Assembly (NCBI GenBank): GCA_027078415.1
Contig: JALWYX010000070.1
Span: 1 to 36,744, forward strand
From: Thermoanaerobaculia bacterium
Lineage (GTDB): Bacteria > Acidobacteriota > Thermoanaerobaculia > JALWYX01
DNA: 36,744 bases
Reading direction: 5' to 3'
The notes below the pieces were generated by a model. It had not been told where the DNA came from. It worked only from the letters and a program-made list of their open reading frames with translations, and made no database searches. A program made the translations under genes and the position numbers. Of the stretch, positions 7,135 through 27,927 are shown one piece after another. Every line of letters starts with the position of its first letter. Position 1 is the first letter of the stretch.

Positions 7135-7368
7135 TTAGGTCATCGCTCTAAGCTTTTCTATAATTTCTTCTTCTGTTGGAAAACGGCGTTCTTTTCTTTT
7201 TGAGAATATGATCTCGTCTCCTACGCTGACTTCAAACACCCCGTCTTTGCCTTTTACAAGTTCACTTTCTATTCCTATTGTTTCTTTTATTTTGGCTGCC
7301 AAACTGGCAGCTCTAGGATAATAGTTTCATACTACACAATACTCTATTTTTACTTTTTTGCTACTCAT
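7135..7368 (-). CDS. SelW/SelT/SelH (Rdx)-family selenoprotein with in-frame TGA (Sec14)
   Basis: Reading the minus strand from ATG 7368-7366 to TAA 7137-7135 gives 77 residues if the in-frame TGA at 7329-7327 is read as selenocysteine. The N-terminus is MSSKKVKIEYCVV-U, then NYYPRAASLAAKIKE. This matches Rdx thioredoxin-like proteins, whose redox motif CxxC or CxxU follows the first beta-strand and precedes Y-PRA--LA. The rest also fits the family: GKDGVFEVSVGDEIIFSKR, then RRFPTEEEIIEKL. Here the motif is Cys11-Val-Val-Sec14. Frame and similarity run unbroken on both sides of the TGA, codon use matches the neighbours, and a hairpin starts 15 nt after the TGA. Role by family: thiol/selenol redox protein. 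TATAAT boxes at 7389-7384 and 7381-7376 could promote it; no clear Shine-Dalgarno is seen. Standard gene calling would miss it. Confidence 0.85.
7295..7311 (-). promoter_or_regulatory. Candidate bacterial SECIS hairpin
   Basis: In the mRNA sense, GCUGCC-AGUUU-GGCAGC forms a perfect six-base-pair stem with a five-base loop inside the coding region. The stem begins 15 nt and the loop 21 nt after the UGA. Bacterial SECIS elements lie within the coding sequence just downstream of UGA, with a G near the start of a small apical loop; here G is the second loop base. Recognition by SelB is inferred, not shown. Confidence 0.6.
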
Positions 7369-7490: not shown

Positions 7491-9260
7491 ATGAGTTTAA
7501 CTCCGGAGAGAATAGCCCAGATTTTGAGGAAACAAGGGATTATAAGTGATGAACATTATAAGATAATTTTGCAAGAAGCTAGGAAAATTCCGCGAAAATA
7601 CAGAGATAATCCCAGAGCTTTTGAGCAGAGGGCCAGAGGATACGAACTTATTTTGCAGTTAAATTTTCCTCATCCGGATGATCCTAGTAGACCTTTGAAC
7701 GAATTTGATATAGCGCAAGCTATTGCTAAAGAAGCAGGGTTACCGTTTGTTAGAATAGACACTTTATCGTTGAATGCTGATCTTATAGAAGCTAGTATTT
7801 CGCGTCCGTTTGCTAGAAGGCATCGTATGCTTCCTCTTGAGTTGCAAAACGGTAGGTTGAAGATCGCTATAGCCAATCCTTTTGACATAGAGGGTATAGA
7901 TTCTTTTAGAAACATTTGCGGTAGACCTTTAGAGTTAGTGGTTGCTTCTGAGCCTGAGATAATAAAGGCTTTGACAGAATTTTATGGTCTTAGACATGCG
8001 GTGAAAAAGGCGGAGAAGGATCTTAAGCAGGGTATAGATTTAGGTAATCTTGAGAGGTTGGTTCATCTTAAGGATGAGGCAGAGATAGAGTCGTCTGATC
8101 AGCACATTATAAATGCTGTAGAGTATATGTTGCAGCACGCGTATGCTACGAGAGCTAGCGATATTCATATAGAACCTAAGAGGGAGAAAAGTTTAATTAG
8201 GTTTAGAATTGATGGAGTGTTACACGATATACAAGAGATGCCCAAGGTTGTTCATAATGCTGTAATAAGTAGAATAAAGGCTATGGCTAGGTTGGATATA
8301 GCCGAGAAGAGACGGCCACAAGATGGAAGAGTAAAAACTAAAAAAGGTGATACTGAAGTAGAACTACGTATTTCGGTGGTACCTGTGGCTTTTGGAGAGA
8401 AGGTGGTTATAAGGATATTCGATCCTGAATTTTTTATGCAGGATCTAAGCAATCTAGGATTTTATCCAGACGAGCTTGAGATTTTCAGGGATTTTATTAC
8501 TCGCCCGCACGGTATAATTCTTGTAACAGGTCCAACTGGATCTGGTAAAACTACTACGCTTTACTCTGCTCTTAAAGCGGTATCTTCGCCTGAGGTGAAT
8601 ATTACAACTATAGAAGATCCTATAGAGATGATATATGAAGATTTTAATCAGATGGCGGTTCAACCTAAGGCAGGTATAACGTTTGCCTCTGCGTTGAGGT
8701 CTATTCTGCGGCAGGATCCAGATATTATAATGATAGGCGAGATAAGGGACCCCGAAACTGCTCAGTATGCTGTACAAGCTGCACTTACAGGGCATTTGGT
8801 TTTTTCTACTTTGCATACCAACGATGCTCCTTCCGCTATTCCTAGATTGGTAGATTTGAATATAGAAAGGTACCTGGTTACATCTACTCTGGTAGGTGTT
8901 ATGGCACAAAGGTTAGTTAGGAAGATATGCCCTCATTGCGGCTACGATAGATTTATGGAACAAGACGAGATCAGAGCACTTAAATTGAGTGTACCTAAGG
9001 GTAAAAAGGTTAGAGTTAGGGAGGGGAAAGGGTGTTTTGAATGTAGAGGCACAGGATATAAAGGAAGGACTGGAATCTTCGAGATTTTAAACGTCGATGA
9101 TACGATAAAAGAACTTATAGCAGAAGGTAAAGATGCACCTACTATTAAAAGAGAAGCTGTGCGTAGAGGTATGAAAACTCTAAGACAGTCTGCTTTACGT
9201 AAACTGGCTGAAGGTATAACAACTGTGGAAGAGGTTATAAGAATTACAGGGTTACAATAA
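7491..9260 (+). CDS. GspE/PilB-type secretion or pilus-assembly ATPase
   Basis: A 589-residue AAA-like ATPase that powers type II secretion or type IV pilus extension at the cytoplasmic face of the inner membrane. Visible: an N-terminal ~170-residue GspE-N-type region (AKEAGLPFVRI, then RHRMLPLEL), the ATPase N-domain (ASDIHIEP), Walker A GPTGSGKTTT (347-356), the Asp box ITTIEDPIEM, Walker B with IIMIGEIRD (412-420), the His box and a tetra-cysteine zinc site (Cys480, Cys483, Cys515, Cys518). The first ~60 residues, with a basic helix, add to the usual N-terminus. AAGGAAG lies about 10 nt before the ATG. No pilus or secretion partners are next to it in this window, so PilB versus GspE stays open. 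The PLP-enzyme gene follows after 17 nt. Confidence 0.9.
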   Translation: MSLTPERIAQILRKQGIISDEHYKIILQEARKIPRKYRDNPRAFEQRARGYELILQLNFPHPDDPSRPLNEFDIAQAIAKEAGLPFVRIDTLSLNADLIEASISRPFARRHRMLPLELQNGRLKIAIANPFDIEGIDSFRNICGRPLELVVASEPEIIKALTEFYGLRHAVKKAEKDLKQGIDLGNLERLVHLKDEAEIESSDQHIINAVEYMLQHAYATRASDIHIEPKREKSLIRFRIDGVLHDIQEMPKVVHNAVISRIKAMARLDIAEKRRPQDGRVKTKKGDTEVELRISVVPVAFGEKVVIRIFDPEFFMQDLSNLGFYPDELEIFRDFITRPHGIILVTGPTGSGKTTTLYSALKAVSSPEVNITTIEDPIEMIYEDFNQMAVQPKAGITFASALRSILRQDPDIIMIGEIRDPETAQYAVQAALTGHLVFSTLHTNDAPSAIPRLVDLNIERYLVTSTLVGVMAQRLVRKICPHCGYDRFMEQDEIRALKLSVPKGKKVRVREGKGCFECRGTGYKGRTGIFEILNVDDTIKELIAEGKDAPTIKREAVRRGMKTLRQSALRKLAEGITTVEEVIRITGLQ

Positions 9261-13077: not shown

Positions 13078-14622
13078 TTATCTATTTCTGCCGTATTTCT
13101 CATGGGATGAGACCCAGTCTAGGGAGGAGATGGCTGCTCCTAAAGATATCTCTCCTGCTAGCGCGGCACCTGCTACTATTTCAGCGAATTTTTTGACTTT
13201 TCCTTTGCCGTAACACCCCATTATCTCAAGACATTCTCGTTGAGTGGCTAATCCTGTACCTCCGCCGTATGTAGCTACTATAAGAGCGGGTATAGTTAAA
13301 GATATGTAAAGCGAACCCTCTGGGGTTACTTCTGTATATAAAATACCTGCTGACCCTTCCGAAATGTTGGCTACATCTTGCCCTGTTGCAATAAATATGG
13401 CTGTTAGTGCGTTAGGTGAGTGGCATCCGTTGTTGTTAGCGCCAGATATAATGGAACCTACGTTTGCTATACAAGAGTGGTAATGGAGAGTTTCTGGGTC
13501 TACCCTCATATGTTGAATAAGGAGATCTCGAGGTATTGTTGCTTCTGCTACTACCCTTTTTCCTCGTGTAAGCATGACGTTAACGTGTGAGGCTTTCTTA
13601 TCTGTGGCTAAATTTGATTCTAGGTAAAATTTCTTTATAGTGGGAACTTGCTCTAGTATCCATGAACACGCTGCAAATGTTGCTCTGCCTACCATGTTTT
13701 GACCAGCAGCATCTCCTGTATAAAAGTTAAACCTTAAATAGGCAAACTTAGATGCTAAATAGATTTCTATATCTAGTAATTTAGCTACCCTGCTAGTTGC
13801 TTCTGCCTCTTGAGCTATCTCCTTTTTGTGTTCCTCTACCCATTTCTTAAATTCCATAGCTTCTTTGGCTGATTCAAATATAAAAACAGGAGCACGTTGC
13901 ATTCTATCATCTAAGACTGTGCATTTAACACCACCTGAAAGATTTAAAATTTTTATTCCTCTGTTGTACGACGCCACCAACGTTCCTTCAGTAGTTGCAA
14001 GAGGTATAAGAAATTCTCCTTGAGCGTAATCTCCGTTGACTTTTAAAGGACCGGCGAACCCTAAAGGTACCTGTGCTACTCCTGTGAAATTTTCTATGTT
14101 TCCTTGCACTATAGTTGGATCAAAGGAATAATTGGTTATATGTTTAGGCTTGACTCCTGTAAATTGTTCAATGAATTTCCACCTTTTCTTAATTATTCTT
14201 TTAGAATAGTTGTTTTCTTTGTCATAAGGAATAGTGGTGGTTTTTTTAGATGGATCCTCTAGCGCATCTTCTACTCTTACCTCTAGAGTTCCATACTGTT
14301 TGGTAGTAAAAGCTATAGTTATTTTATGTTTACCCAAATCTAGCTTTTGCCTGTTTAAAACTTCTATAGTTAAAGAATCTCCTAACTTGAAGGTAAGGGG
14401 GTTAGAGGGTGTTATCTCTGTTACTTTCAATCGATCCCCGTTATCTAGCACCAGGTTTATGACGTCTAAAGGAATCTCTTCACCGTCAATCTCTATCCTA
14501 TTTATTTTCTCTAAAATTACGTTGTTTAATCTATTTTTTACTCTGAATTTAAATCCTTTACGGATATTTTGCAAACTTCCATAAGTGTAAAGTTGTCTTA
14601 ATATAAGTTGCGGGATTTTCAT
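13078..14622 (-). CDS. Class I hydroxymethylglutaryl-CoA reductase with extra N-terminal domain
   Basis: Reduces HMG-CoA to mevalonate with NADPH, the committed step of the mevalonate pathway to isoprenoids. In 514 residues the catalytic domain occupies ~135-514: [17 protein letters not shown] (substrate side), catalytic Glu212 in ATTEGTL, the cofactor motif GDAAGQNMV (303-311), Lys342 in TDKKAS, Asp416 in GQDVAN and the C-terminal His507 in SSHEKY. This is the class I (eukaryote/archaea-type) arrangement. Residues 1-~125 form a beta-rich soluble domain with no membrane anchor; I do not recognise its function. A strong Shine-Dalgarno (AGGAGGAG) precedes the ATG. DUF1015, a small ORF and a lipoprotein gene follow on the strand. 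Confidence 0.9.
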
Positions 14623-25162: not shown

Positions 25163-26159
25163 AGTGGTGCTTATAAAAGGTGACGGTGTTGGCCCTGAGG
25201 TATCTAAATCGGTGGTAGATATACTGGATGCTGCTGAGTGTGGGATAGAGTGGATAGAAGTTGAAGCTGGACTCCCAGCTATAGAAAGATACGGTACGCC
25301 GTTGCCAGAGAATGTGATAGATATTGTAAAAGATAAAGGTGTGGCTCTTAAAGGGCCTGTAACTACTCCAGTTGGTAAAGGGTTTAGATCTGTAAATGTT
25401 ACACTTAGGCAGAGTTTAGATCTGTATGTGAATCTTAGACCTGTTAGAAGCTTACCAGGTGTAGCTAGTAGGTATAAGGATGTTGATCTGGTTATAGTAC
25501 GAGAAAACACAGAAGGACTTTATAAAGGTATTGAGTATGAGGTTGTTGATGGAGTAGTCGAAAGTATAAAAGTTATAACGCGTACAGCTTCTCTTAGGAT
25601 AGCGAAATTTGCTTTCGAATATGCTGTTAGAAAGGGAAGAAAAAAGGTTACTGCTGCGCATAAAGCTAATATAATGAAGATGGTGGATGGTCTTTTCCTG
25701 CAATGCTTTAGGGAGGTGGCTGAAAAGTATCCTGATATAGAGGCGGATGAAAAGATTATCGATAATTTGTGTATGCAACTAGTTTTAAATCCTGATAAAT
25801 TTGACGTTTTGGTCATGGAAAATTTCTACGGTGATGTGGTTTCTGATCTGGCTGCTGGTTTGGTTGGAGGTTTGGGTGTTGCTCCTGGGGCTAATATAGG
25901 GGATAAAATAGGTGTGTTTGAAGCGGTTCATGGTAGTGCTCCAGATATAGCAGGTAAAGGGATAGCTAATCCTATTGCACTACTTCAATCTGCTATACTG
26001 ATGCTAGAGTACCTGTCTCTAGATGAAAAAGCAGAACTTGTATATAAAGCCTTGTGTTATACGCTAGAGTGTAAAGGTATAAAAACTCCAGACTTAGGAG
26101 GTACAGCTACAACTGAGGAATTTACCAAAGCTGTTATAGATTCTCTTGAGAAAGTGTAG
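25152..26159 (+). CDS. NAD-type isocitrate dehydrogenase / isopropylmalate dehydrogenase family
   Basis: Beta-decarboxylating dehydrogenase of 335 residues. IKGDGVGPEV (8-17), TTPVGKGFRSVNVTLRQ (~75-91), LYVNLRPVRSLPG (~95-107), IVRENTEGLYKG (~116-127), the catalytic Lys in AAHKANIMK (~173-181) and MENFYGDVVSDLAAGLVGG (~218-236) with the metal-binding Asp residues are visible. Ser-x-Asn before the first Arg block and the absence of a Leu-rich substrate pocket favour isocitrate over isopropylmalate. HGSAPDIAGK has Asp-Ile where NADP enzymes have Lys-Tyr, so NAD use is expected. AGGAGG lies 5 nt before the ATG. Its 3' end overlaps convergent dsbD by 26 nt. Homoisocitrate or tartrate relatives remain possible. 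Confidence 0.85.
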   Translation: MGIEVVLIKGDGVGPEVSKSVVDILDAAECGIEWIEVEAGLPAIERYGTPLPENVIDIVKDKGVALKGPVTTPVGKGFRSVNVTLRQSLDLYVNLRPVRSLPGVASRYKDVDLVIVRENTEGLYKGIEYEVVDGVVESIKVITRTASLRIAKFAFEYAVRKGRKKVTAAHKANIMKMVDGLFLQCFREVAEKYPDIEADEKIIDNLCMQLVLNPDKFDVLVMENFYGDVVSDLAAGLVGGLGVAPGANIGDKIGVFEAVHGSAPDIAGKGIANPIALLQSAILMLEYLSLDEKAELVYKALCYTLECKGIKTPDLGGTATTEEFTKAVIDSLEKV

Positions 26160-27927
26160 ATCTATTATTGTCTAGTTTGGATAGAGCTTTTTCTATTTCA
26201 GATACAGAGATAAGTTCGCCGAAAACGTACTTTTCTCCTGAAGGATAATAAAGCACATAGAAAGGCACCCCTTTTTTCCCATGACTGAATAGAAATTTGG
26301 ATATCTCCTCGTTTTTGTTTGTCCAATCAGCTTTTAGCGGCTTAACCTTATACTTTCTAAAGAAATTTGCTACTTTTTCTGTATTCAAGATCATCGCTTC
26401 GTTAACTTTGCATGTCAAGCACCAATCTGCAGTAACATCCACGAATACCGGGAAACCCATAGATAGATATCGATCTATCTTCGAACTAGAAAACGGTTCC
26501 CATTCTATTATCGATTCTTTCTCGGTTCTAAGATCGTTGGAAATCTTTTTTCTACTTACCGTTGCTGCTTTGTCGTTAGTTACAGAGTAGATAGGAAAGA
26601 TAAAAGAAATCAAAGTAAGAGTAAGTGCTAAAGTTCTTTTTAACGACTGTAGGTTTGAGCTAAGCCATACGAAAAACGCGAGTATTATAAAAGACGTTTG
26701 TACTTTTGCTAAAGAGATGCTGTCTAGCTGTCCGTGCAAAATATAGAATATCCATACTATCGACAACAGGAGAAGAAAACCCATACTTTTTTTAAAACTT
26801 TCCATCCAGGGTCCCGGTTTGGGTAATATTTTAGACGCGTTTGGTTTTATAGCTATTATTATAAAAGGTAAAGACATACCTACTCCTATTGCAGTAAAAA
26901 TGGTAAAAGTTACATATGCTGGTGAAGCTATGGCGAAAGATACAGCTGTTCCAAGAAAAGGAGCAGAACAGGGTGTGGCCATAAGTGTCGCGAACATACC
27001 TGTTAGAAAATCTCCCACTATTCCTTCATGTTTTTTTGTTCCTAAAGCGTTTAGAATAAATTTAGGAGGTGATATTTCAAAAATTCCCCATAGATTCAAA
27101 GTAAAAAGTACTATTATCTCTCCTAGAAATACTACAAAACCGGGGTTTTGAAACTGTACTCCCCACCCTACACTTTTACCTGCTATAGTAGCTAGTATTA
27201 CAAAAATTGCTAGTAATATAAAAGAGAAAATTATTCCAAGGGAAGTTACTAGAGTACTAATTCTTACTTTTAGATTGTTCCCTTGAGACGCTTTTATAAG
27301 CGAAAATATCTTTAAAGAGAGAACCGGTAGAACGCATGGCATTATGTTTAGAATTAAACCTCCTAATATTCCAAAGAGAATGTAGATATATATTGACTTA
27401 GATGCGTTTTGGTGCTGTTTGATCCCGGTTTTTGCGGTTAAGTACGATACTTCTATCTGAAATTCTTCGTCGTCTGGAGGAAGACACTGTTTATCGTCGC
27501 ACGCCTGAAAAGTTACTTTACCTTTTATTATCTCCTTATCGTTCGTAATTTTTGATGGTGTTTTGAGAATAGCTGTAATTTTAACCTTTCCTTCGTAAAC
27601 AGAAAGTTCCTTTTCGGCAAAAGTAAATTTGGCTAGTTTTGCAGCTGGATACTTTGTATCTACTATTTGCCATTTCTCAGGAATCGAAAACTCTACTTTT
27701 GTAGGAATAAGAAATTCCTCTGTAGGTTTATTTGAATTTATATGCCACCCTTGTGCTATATCTAAAGTGATCGATACGTCTACCTCACTACCTGGTGCAG
27801 TTTCTACCTTTTTCGGTTCTACCAATACTGTAACCACCTCTTTGGAAGAAGCTAATACAGATATAGGTAGAATGACAACCGTTAATATAATTAGATAGAA
27901 TGTGTAAAAAGTAGTTTTGCTACGCAT
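26134..27927 (-). CDS. dsbD: Thiol:disulfide interchange protein DsbD (three-domain)
   Basis: Carries electrons from cytoplasmic thioredoxin across the inner membrane to periplasmic thiol proteins. In 597 residues: signal peptide ending near LAS-S (~26-28); N-terminal periplasmic domain to ~170 with Cys143/Cys148 in QACDDKQC; membrane domain ~178-450 with about eight hydrophobic segments and its Cys pair Cys198 (IMPCVLP) and Cys320 (ATPCSAP); C-terminal thioredoxin-like domain with Cys503 and Cys506 in DWCLTCK. All six redox Cys are present. No cytochrome-maturation or Dsb partner is adjacent. Its 3' end overlaps convergent isocitrate dehydrogenase by 26 nt. No strong Shine-Dalgarno is seen before the ATG. 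Confidence 0.92.
   Translation of the reverse strand: MRSKTTFYTFYLIILTVVILPISVLASSKEVVTVLVEPKKVETAPGSEVDVSITLDIAQGWHINSNKPTEEFLIPTKVEFSIPEKWQIVDTKYPAAKLAKFTFAEKELSVYEGKVKITAILKTPSKITNDKEIIKGKVTFQACDDKQCLPPDDEEFQIEVSYLTAKTGIKQHQNASKSIYIYILFGILGGLILNIMPCVLPVLSLKIFSLIKASQGNNLKVRISTLVTSLGIIFSFILLAIFVILATIAGKSVGWGVQFQNPGFVVFLGEIIVLFTLNLWGIFEISPPKFILNALGTKKHEGIVGDFLTGMFATLMATPCSAPFLGTAVSFAIASPAYVTFTIFTAIGVGMSLPFIIIAIKPNASKILPKPGPWMESFKKSMGFLLLLSIVWIFYILHGQLDSISLAKVQTSFIILAFFVWLSSNLQSLKRTLALTLTLISFIFPIYSVTNDKAATVSRKKISNDLRTEKESIIEWEPFSSSKIDRYLSMGFPVFVDVTADWCLTCKVNEAMILNTEKVANFFRKYKVKPLKADWTNKNEEISKFLFSHGKKGVPFYVLYYPSGEKYVFGELISVSEIEKALSKLDNNRSTLSQENL

Follow-up and report, generated by a model that had tools for sequence, protein, structure and literature searches.

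The stretch of DNA that was analysed, here called the window, is 36,744 nucleotides long and contains a seemingly empty gap between two plus-strand genes. The question raised by this gap is whether its minus strand carries a selenoprotein gene, one that standard gene calling would overlook, in which a TGA is read as selenocysteine (Sec), or whether that TGA is simply a stop. The features on which the question turns are these:

7135 to 7368, minus strand: selW-like gene of the Rdx / SelT-SelW-SelH family, 77 codons plus TAA, with a single in-frame TGA
7327 to 7329, minus strand: the TGA, assigned as selenocysteine codon, residue 14, in the CxxU motif C11-V-V-U14
7295 to 7311, minus strand: candidate bacterial SECIS hairpin GCUGCCA-GUU-UGGCAGC, with a 7 bp stem, G as the first base of the loop and 22 nt from UGA to loop
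5722 to 6912, plus strand: TRAM-domain RNA (uracil-5-)methyltransferase, convergent neighbour, outside the selenoprotein gene
7491 to 9260, plus strand: PilB/GspE-type secretion ATPase, divergent neighbour, outside the selenoprotein gene

When the minus strand is translated from 7368 to 7135 with TGA as Sec, the product is MSSKKVKIEYCVVUNYYPRAASLAAKIKETIGIESELVKGKDGVFEVSVGDEIIFSKRKERRFPTEEEIIEKLRAMT, with Cys11 and U14 as its landmarks, and the frame is closed by TAA. An earlier note on this DNA had identified the TGA at 7329-7327 with the second redox residue of a CxxU motif, and both the coordinates and the residues are exact in this translation. It had also held that similarity to the Rdx family continues unbroken across the TGA, which is borne out by matches of the read-through product above the cut-offs of three models, namely Pfam Rdx (PF10262; E=3.7e-20, residues 5-74), TIGR02174 (61.6 bits, cut-off 34.2) and NF041051, the NCBI model 'SelT/SelW/SelH family (seleno)protein' (90.1 bits, cut-off 88). 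The family match as a whole is far above chance. A six-frame search of the genome from which the window comes found a single Rdx-family copy, with one TGA inside. No good match to a -10/-35 promoter was found directly 5' of the start codon.

The gene is solitary, lying between the methyltransferase and the ATPase, and no functional link with these neighbours is seen. A homologue of the methyltransferase is close to selW in several relatives, and at one related locus (L053) there are homologues of two more genes from the left part of the window with their order kept; these shared neighbours support the orthology of the selW-like genes. The protein encoded at 1601-2665 on the plus strand has a homologue of 69% identity near selW at L053. 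It matches type II (archaeal) glyceraldehyde-3-phosphate dehydrogenase below the cut-off (85 bits, cut-off 185) and has no Pfam match.

The earlier note had named close relatives in which the frame stops or slips at the TGA codon as evidence that would count against a selenoprotein. The class search covered the genome itself and 60 further genomes of the same class (n=61), and selW homologues, all above the cut-off, were found in 49 of them. Every full-length homologue contains exactly one TGA, with the sole TGA-less match being a fragment at a contig end that starts downstream of the TGA position. In all 34 loci that were translated (34/34) the TGA lies at C-x-x-U and the frame continues past it, with relatives staying in frame for around 60 residues; they neither stop there nor change frame. 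Over 18 codons 3' of the TGA, this gene and six relatives disagree at only 1-4 second positions but at 10-14 third positions, and because second positions differ far less than third the protein is constrained beyond the TGA. The closest relatives with titles are from metagenome-assembled genomes of Acidobacteria and Thermoanaerobaculia (51-52% identity), with plasmid matches being remote (30-41%) and a scan of viral contigs returning no relative. The window itself is placed in Acidobacteriota, most probably in the class Thermoanaerobaculia. Because selB is above the cut-off in 57 of the 61 genomes, the co-occurrence of selW and selB within the class is uninformative.

Across a sample of the phylum the family was found in 94 of 297 genomes, mostly with one TGA. 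Six full-length, stop-free homologues that were read (L057-L062), one from genome G117 and the others from five family f29 genomes, have TGC at the Sec codon within the same motif, and these Cys-type Rdx proteins of Acidobacteriota carry CTQC. The counterpart of the TGA is thus a redox cysteine, and the two form a classical Sec/Cys pair, as in known selenoprotein families. No selB match was found at E<=1e-40 in G117, which is 99% complete, but the genomes of family f29 retain selB though their Rdx protein is of the Cys type. As these selB-containing genomes account for most of the Cys homologues, the choice between Sec and Cys is not simply set by the machinery. SelW-like selenoproteins are thus widespread in Acidobacteriota, with a natural Sec/Cys switch within the phylum.

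The insertion of Sec at UGA by means of SelB and a downstream hairpin is the established mechanism in bacteria; in eukaryotic SELENOW the SECIS is located in the 3'-UTR. At this locus a hairpin at 7311-7295 starts 15 nt downstream of the UGA. In the published bacterial SECIS model the stem has 4-16 bp and the loop 3-9 nt, one of the first two loop bases is G, the loop lies 16-37 nt from the UGA, and the minimum free energy does not exceed -7.5 (PMC13188914). The hairpin of the selW-like gene falls within this model (7 bp, GUU loop, 22 nt, -11.5 kcal/mol), as do those of 33 out of 36 distinct sequences; none of the 36 lacks the loop G, and the base after it is U or G. Paired cells make up 94.8% of the stem, whereas 2000 shuffles gave at most 93.3% and slid partners 20-57%. 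Compensatory changes in the stem are seen at synonymous sites (C-G to T-A and C-G to G-C), and one further exchange of C-G to T-A replaces two alanines of the protein, one by valine and the other by threonine. Compared with synonymous recodings the hairpin is only modestly stronger (p ~0.04 for the sequence of the window; mean z = -1.2 over 27 sequences), and because stability alone gives moderate support, the case for a SECIS is built on the conserved loop G, the position and the covariation. No RNA family was found at the hairpin in Rfam.

The machinery that such a gene needs is complete in the genome, which is 1.96 Mb in size and 97% complete. The earlier note had argued that the host must encode SelA, SelB, SelD and tRNA-Sec, and that a genome without selB or selC would speak for a decayed gene or a sequence error. 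A tRNA-Sec with a UCA anticodon was detected (77.3 bits, with ARAGORN in agreement), together with selB (280.8 bits, above the cut-off), selA (392.6 bits) and selD (268.4 bits). The selD gene (G000:C35:10433-11329, minus strand, L047) itself has an in-frame TGA, at the active site G-G-G-U-A-S-K, with a hairpin 3' of it, and is a second, independent user of Sec in this genome.

It could still be argued that an ordinary Cys-type Rdx gene has had its TGC turned into TGA, by decay or by an error of sequencing, as this would take a single step and homologues with TGC exist at the same site in the phylum. However, the TGA is kept at exactly the same codon in independent genomes across class and phylum, in dozens of genera, the frame beyond it is open and constrained, and the genome has all that is needed for the use of Sec, which leaves this explanation with almost no credence. 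The conservation of the TGA across the class was the ground for rejecting decay, a frameshift or an error of sequencing. It is also the case that read-through by itself leaves the inserted residue unnamed, and a genome-wide change of code or a suppressor tRNA could place Trp or Cys at the TGA. Set against this, TGA terminates ordinary genes in the window: the 25 main ORFs end in TAA (12), TAG (9) and TGA (4), and as TGA also ends ordinary ORFs a general code of TGA=Trp is unlikely, just as the earlier note had supposed in treating TGA as a normal stop elsewhere in the window. TGA=Trp was rejected on this evidence. The presence of a canonical tRNA-Sec(UCA), SelA and SelB, the SECIS-like hairpin 3' of the TGA, and the standing of the TGA residue in place of the Cys of CxxC make the reading as any amino acid other than Sec extremely improbable.

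A further possibility does not contradict the reading as a selenoprotein gene, and would rather refine it. Competition between Sec decoding and termination is well established, and the TGA might be partly a stop. Two products would then arise, the full selenoprotein and a peptide of 13 residues, and read-through that depends on selenium would serve as regulation. There is no conserved sign of function for the short peptide, however, and this possibility is unlikely.

The minus-strand frame from 7368 to 7135 is therefore almost certainly a functional SelW-like selenoprotein gene with Sec inserted at the UGA. Ribosomes would read up to the UGA at codon 14, SelB-GTP with Sec-tRNA-Sec would dock on the stem-loop just 3' of it, and Sec would be incorporated instead of termination, giving a protein of 77 residues of the thioredoxin-like Rdx type with a Cys-Val-Val-Sec redox motif. 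The Rdx family has a thioredoxin-like fold. Similarity to structure 2ljk extends across the whole domain (E=1.2e-9), and there is likeness of sequence over the whole domain to mammalian selenoprotein W / C17orf37 and bacterial Rdx structures (2ljk, 2npb, 2fa8, 3dex), of which 2fa8 and 3dex are solved bacterial relatives. This similarity to solved Rdx structures suggests that the product may share the fold. Judged from homologous Rdx proteins, the product is probably a thiol/selenol oxidoreductase, which would form a reversible selenenylsulfide between C11 and U14 and might act in cytosolic redox control.

The biology of such genes is not new. SelW-like selenoproteins of bacteria are described in the 2005 survey of the Sargasso Sea and the 2006 survey of bacteria by Zhang and Gladyshev (PMC1088965, PMC1794560), and they have in common with this gene the Rdx family, the CxxU motif and a downstream bacterial SECIS, with the taxon alone being different, here Acidobacteriota and Thermoanaerobaculia-like. 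They are described there as having very few or no Cys-containing homologues in Sec-using bacteria, and in the 2006 survey three selenoprotein families are counted in Acidobacteria. A study of epsilonproteobacteria in 2015 noted that SelW genes in particular were omitted from annotation (PMC4607533), and ribosome profiling together with mass spectrometry has demonstrated that selW of Campylobacter jejuni (CJnc60) is translated past its UGA (PMC11955535). The present protein clears the Campylobacter-named model NF041051 (90.1 against 88 bits) and is similar in length to the Campylobacter jejuni / epsilonproteobacterial SelW (77 and 80 aa), but it comes from another phylum and the proof of translation is limited to C. 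jejuni. Thus the literature already covers the family, the CxxU motif, the frequent omission from annotation and the actual translation of a member in another bacterium, and the gene is a further SelW-like selenoprotein of known biology.

What else in the genome may depend on Sec was also considered. A formate dehydrogenase above the family cut-off was not found in the genome, with weaker matches of this kind having no TGA inside, and the peroxiredoxin-family genes likewise contain none, so that Sec may have very few users here, SelW among them. It is a tentative and rather doubtful suggestion that a small genome keeps the whole Sec system for little beyond SelW and SelD; if this were true, SelW would be what sustains the Sec trait here. 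The recovery of the gene, together with the spread of the family and the Sec/Cys switch in the phylum, is useful both for the annotation of selenoproteins and for the study of why Sec is retained.

Other observations concern the genome and the rest of the window. A gene of the HesB/IscA type (PF01521) was not found in the genome, which is 97% complete. A DsbD-like protein is encoded at 26134-27927 on the minus strand; its match to the rhodanese/DsbD-fusion selenoprotein TsoB is far below the cut-off and it has no in-frame TGA. At 13078-14622, also on the minus strand, there is a bacterial HMG-CoA reductase (Pfam 3.2e-127), for which the nearest type is the NADPH (biosynthetic) one. The third positions of the main ORFs differ between the strands (T 39% and G 20% on the plus strand, A 41% and G 13% on the minus strand) and GC skew is positive across most of the window, both of which probably reflect strand-biased replication.
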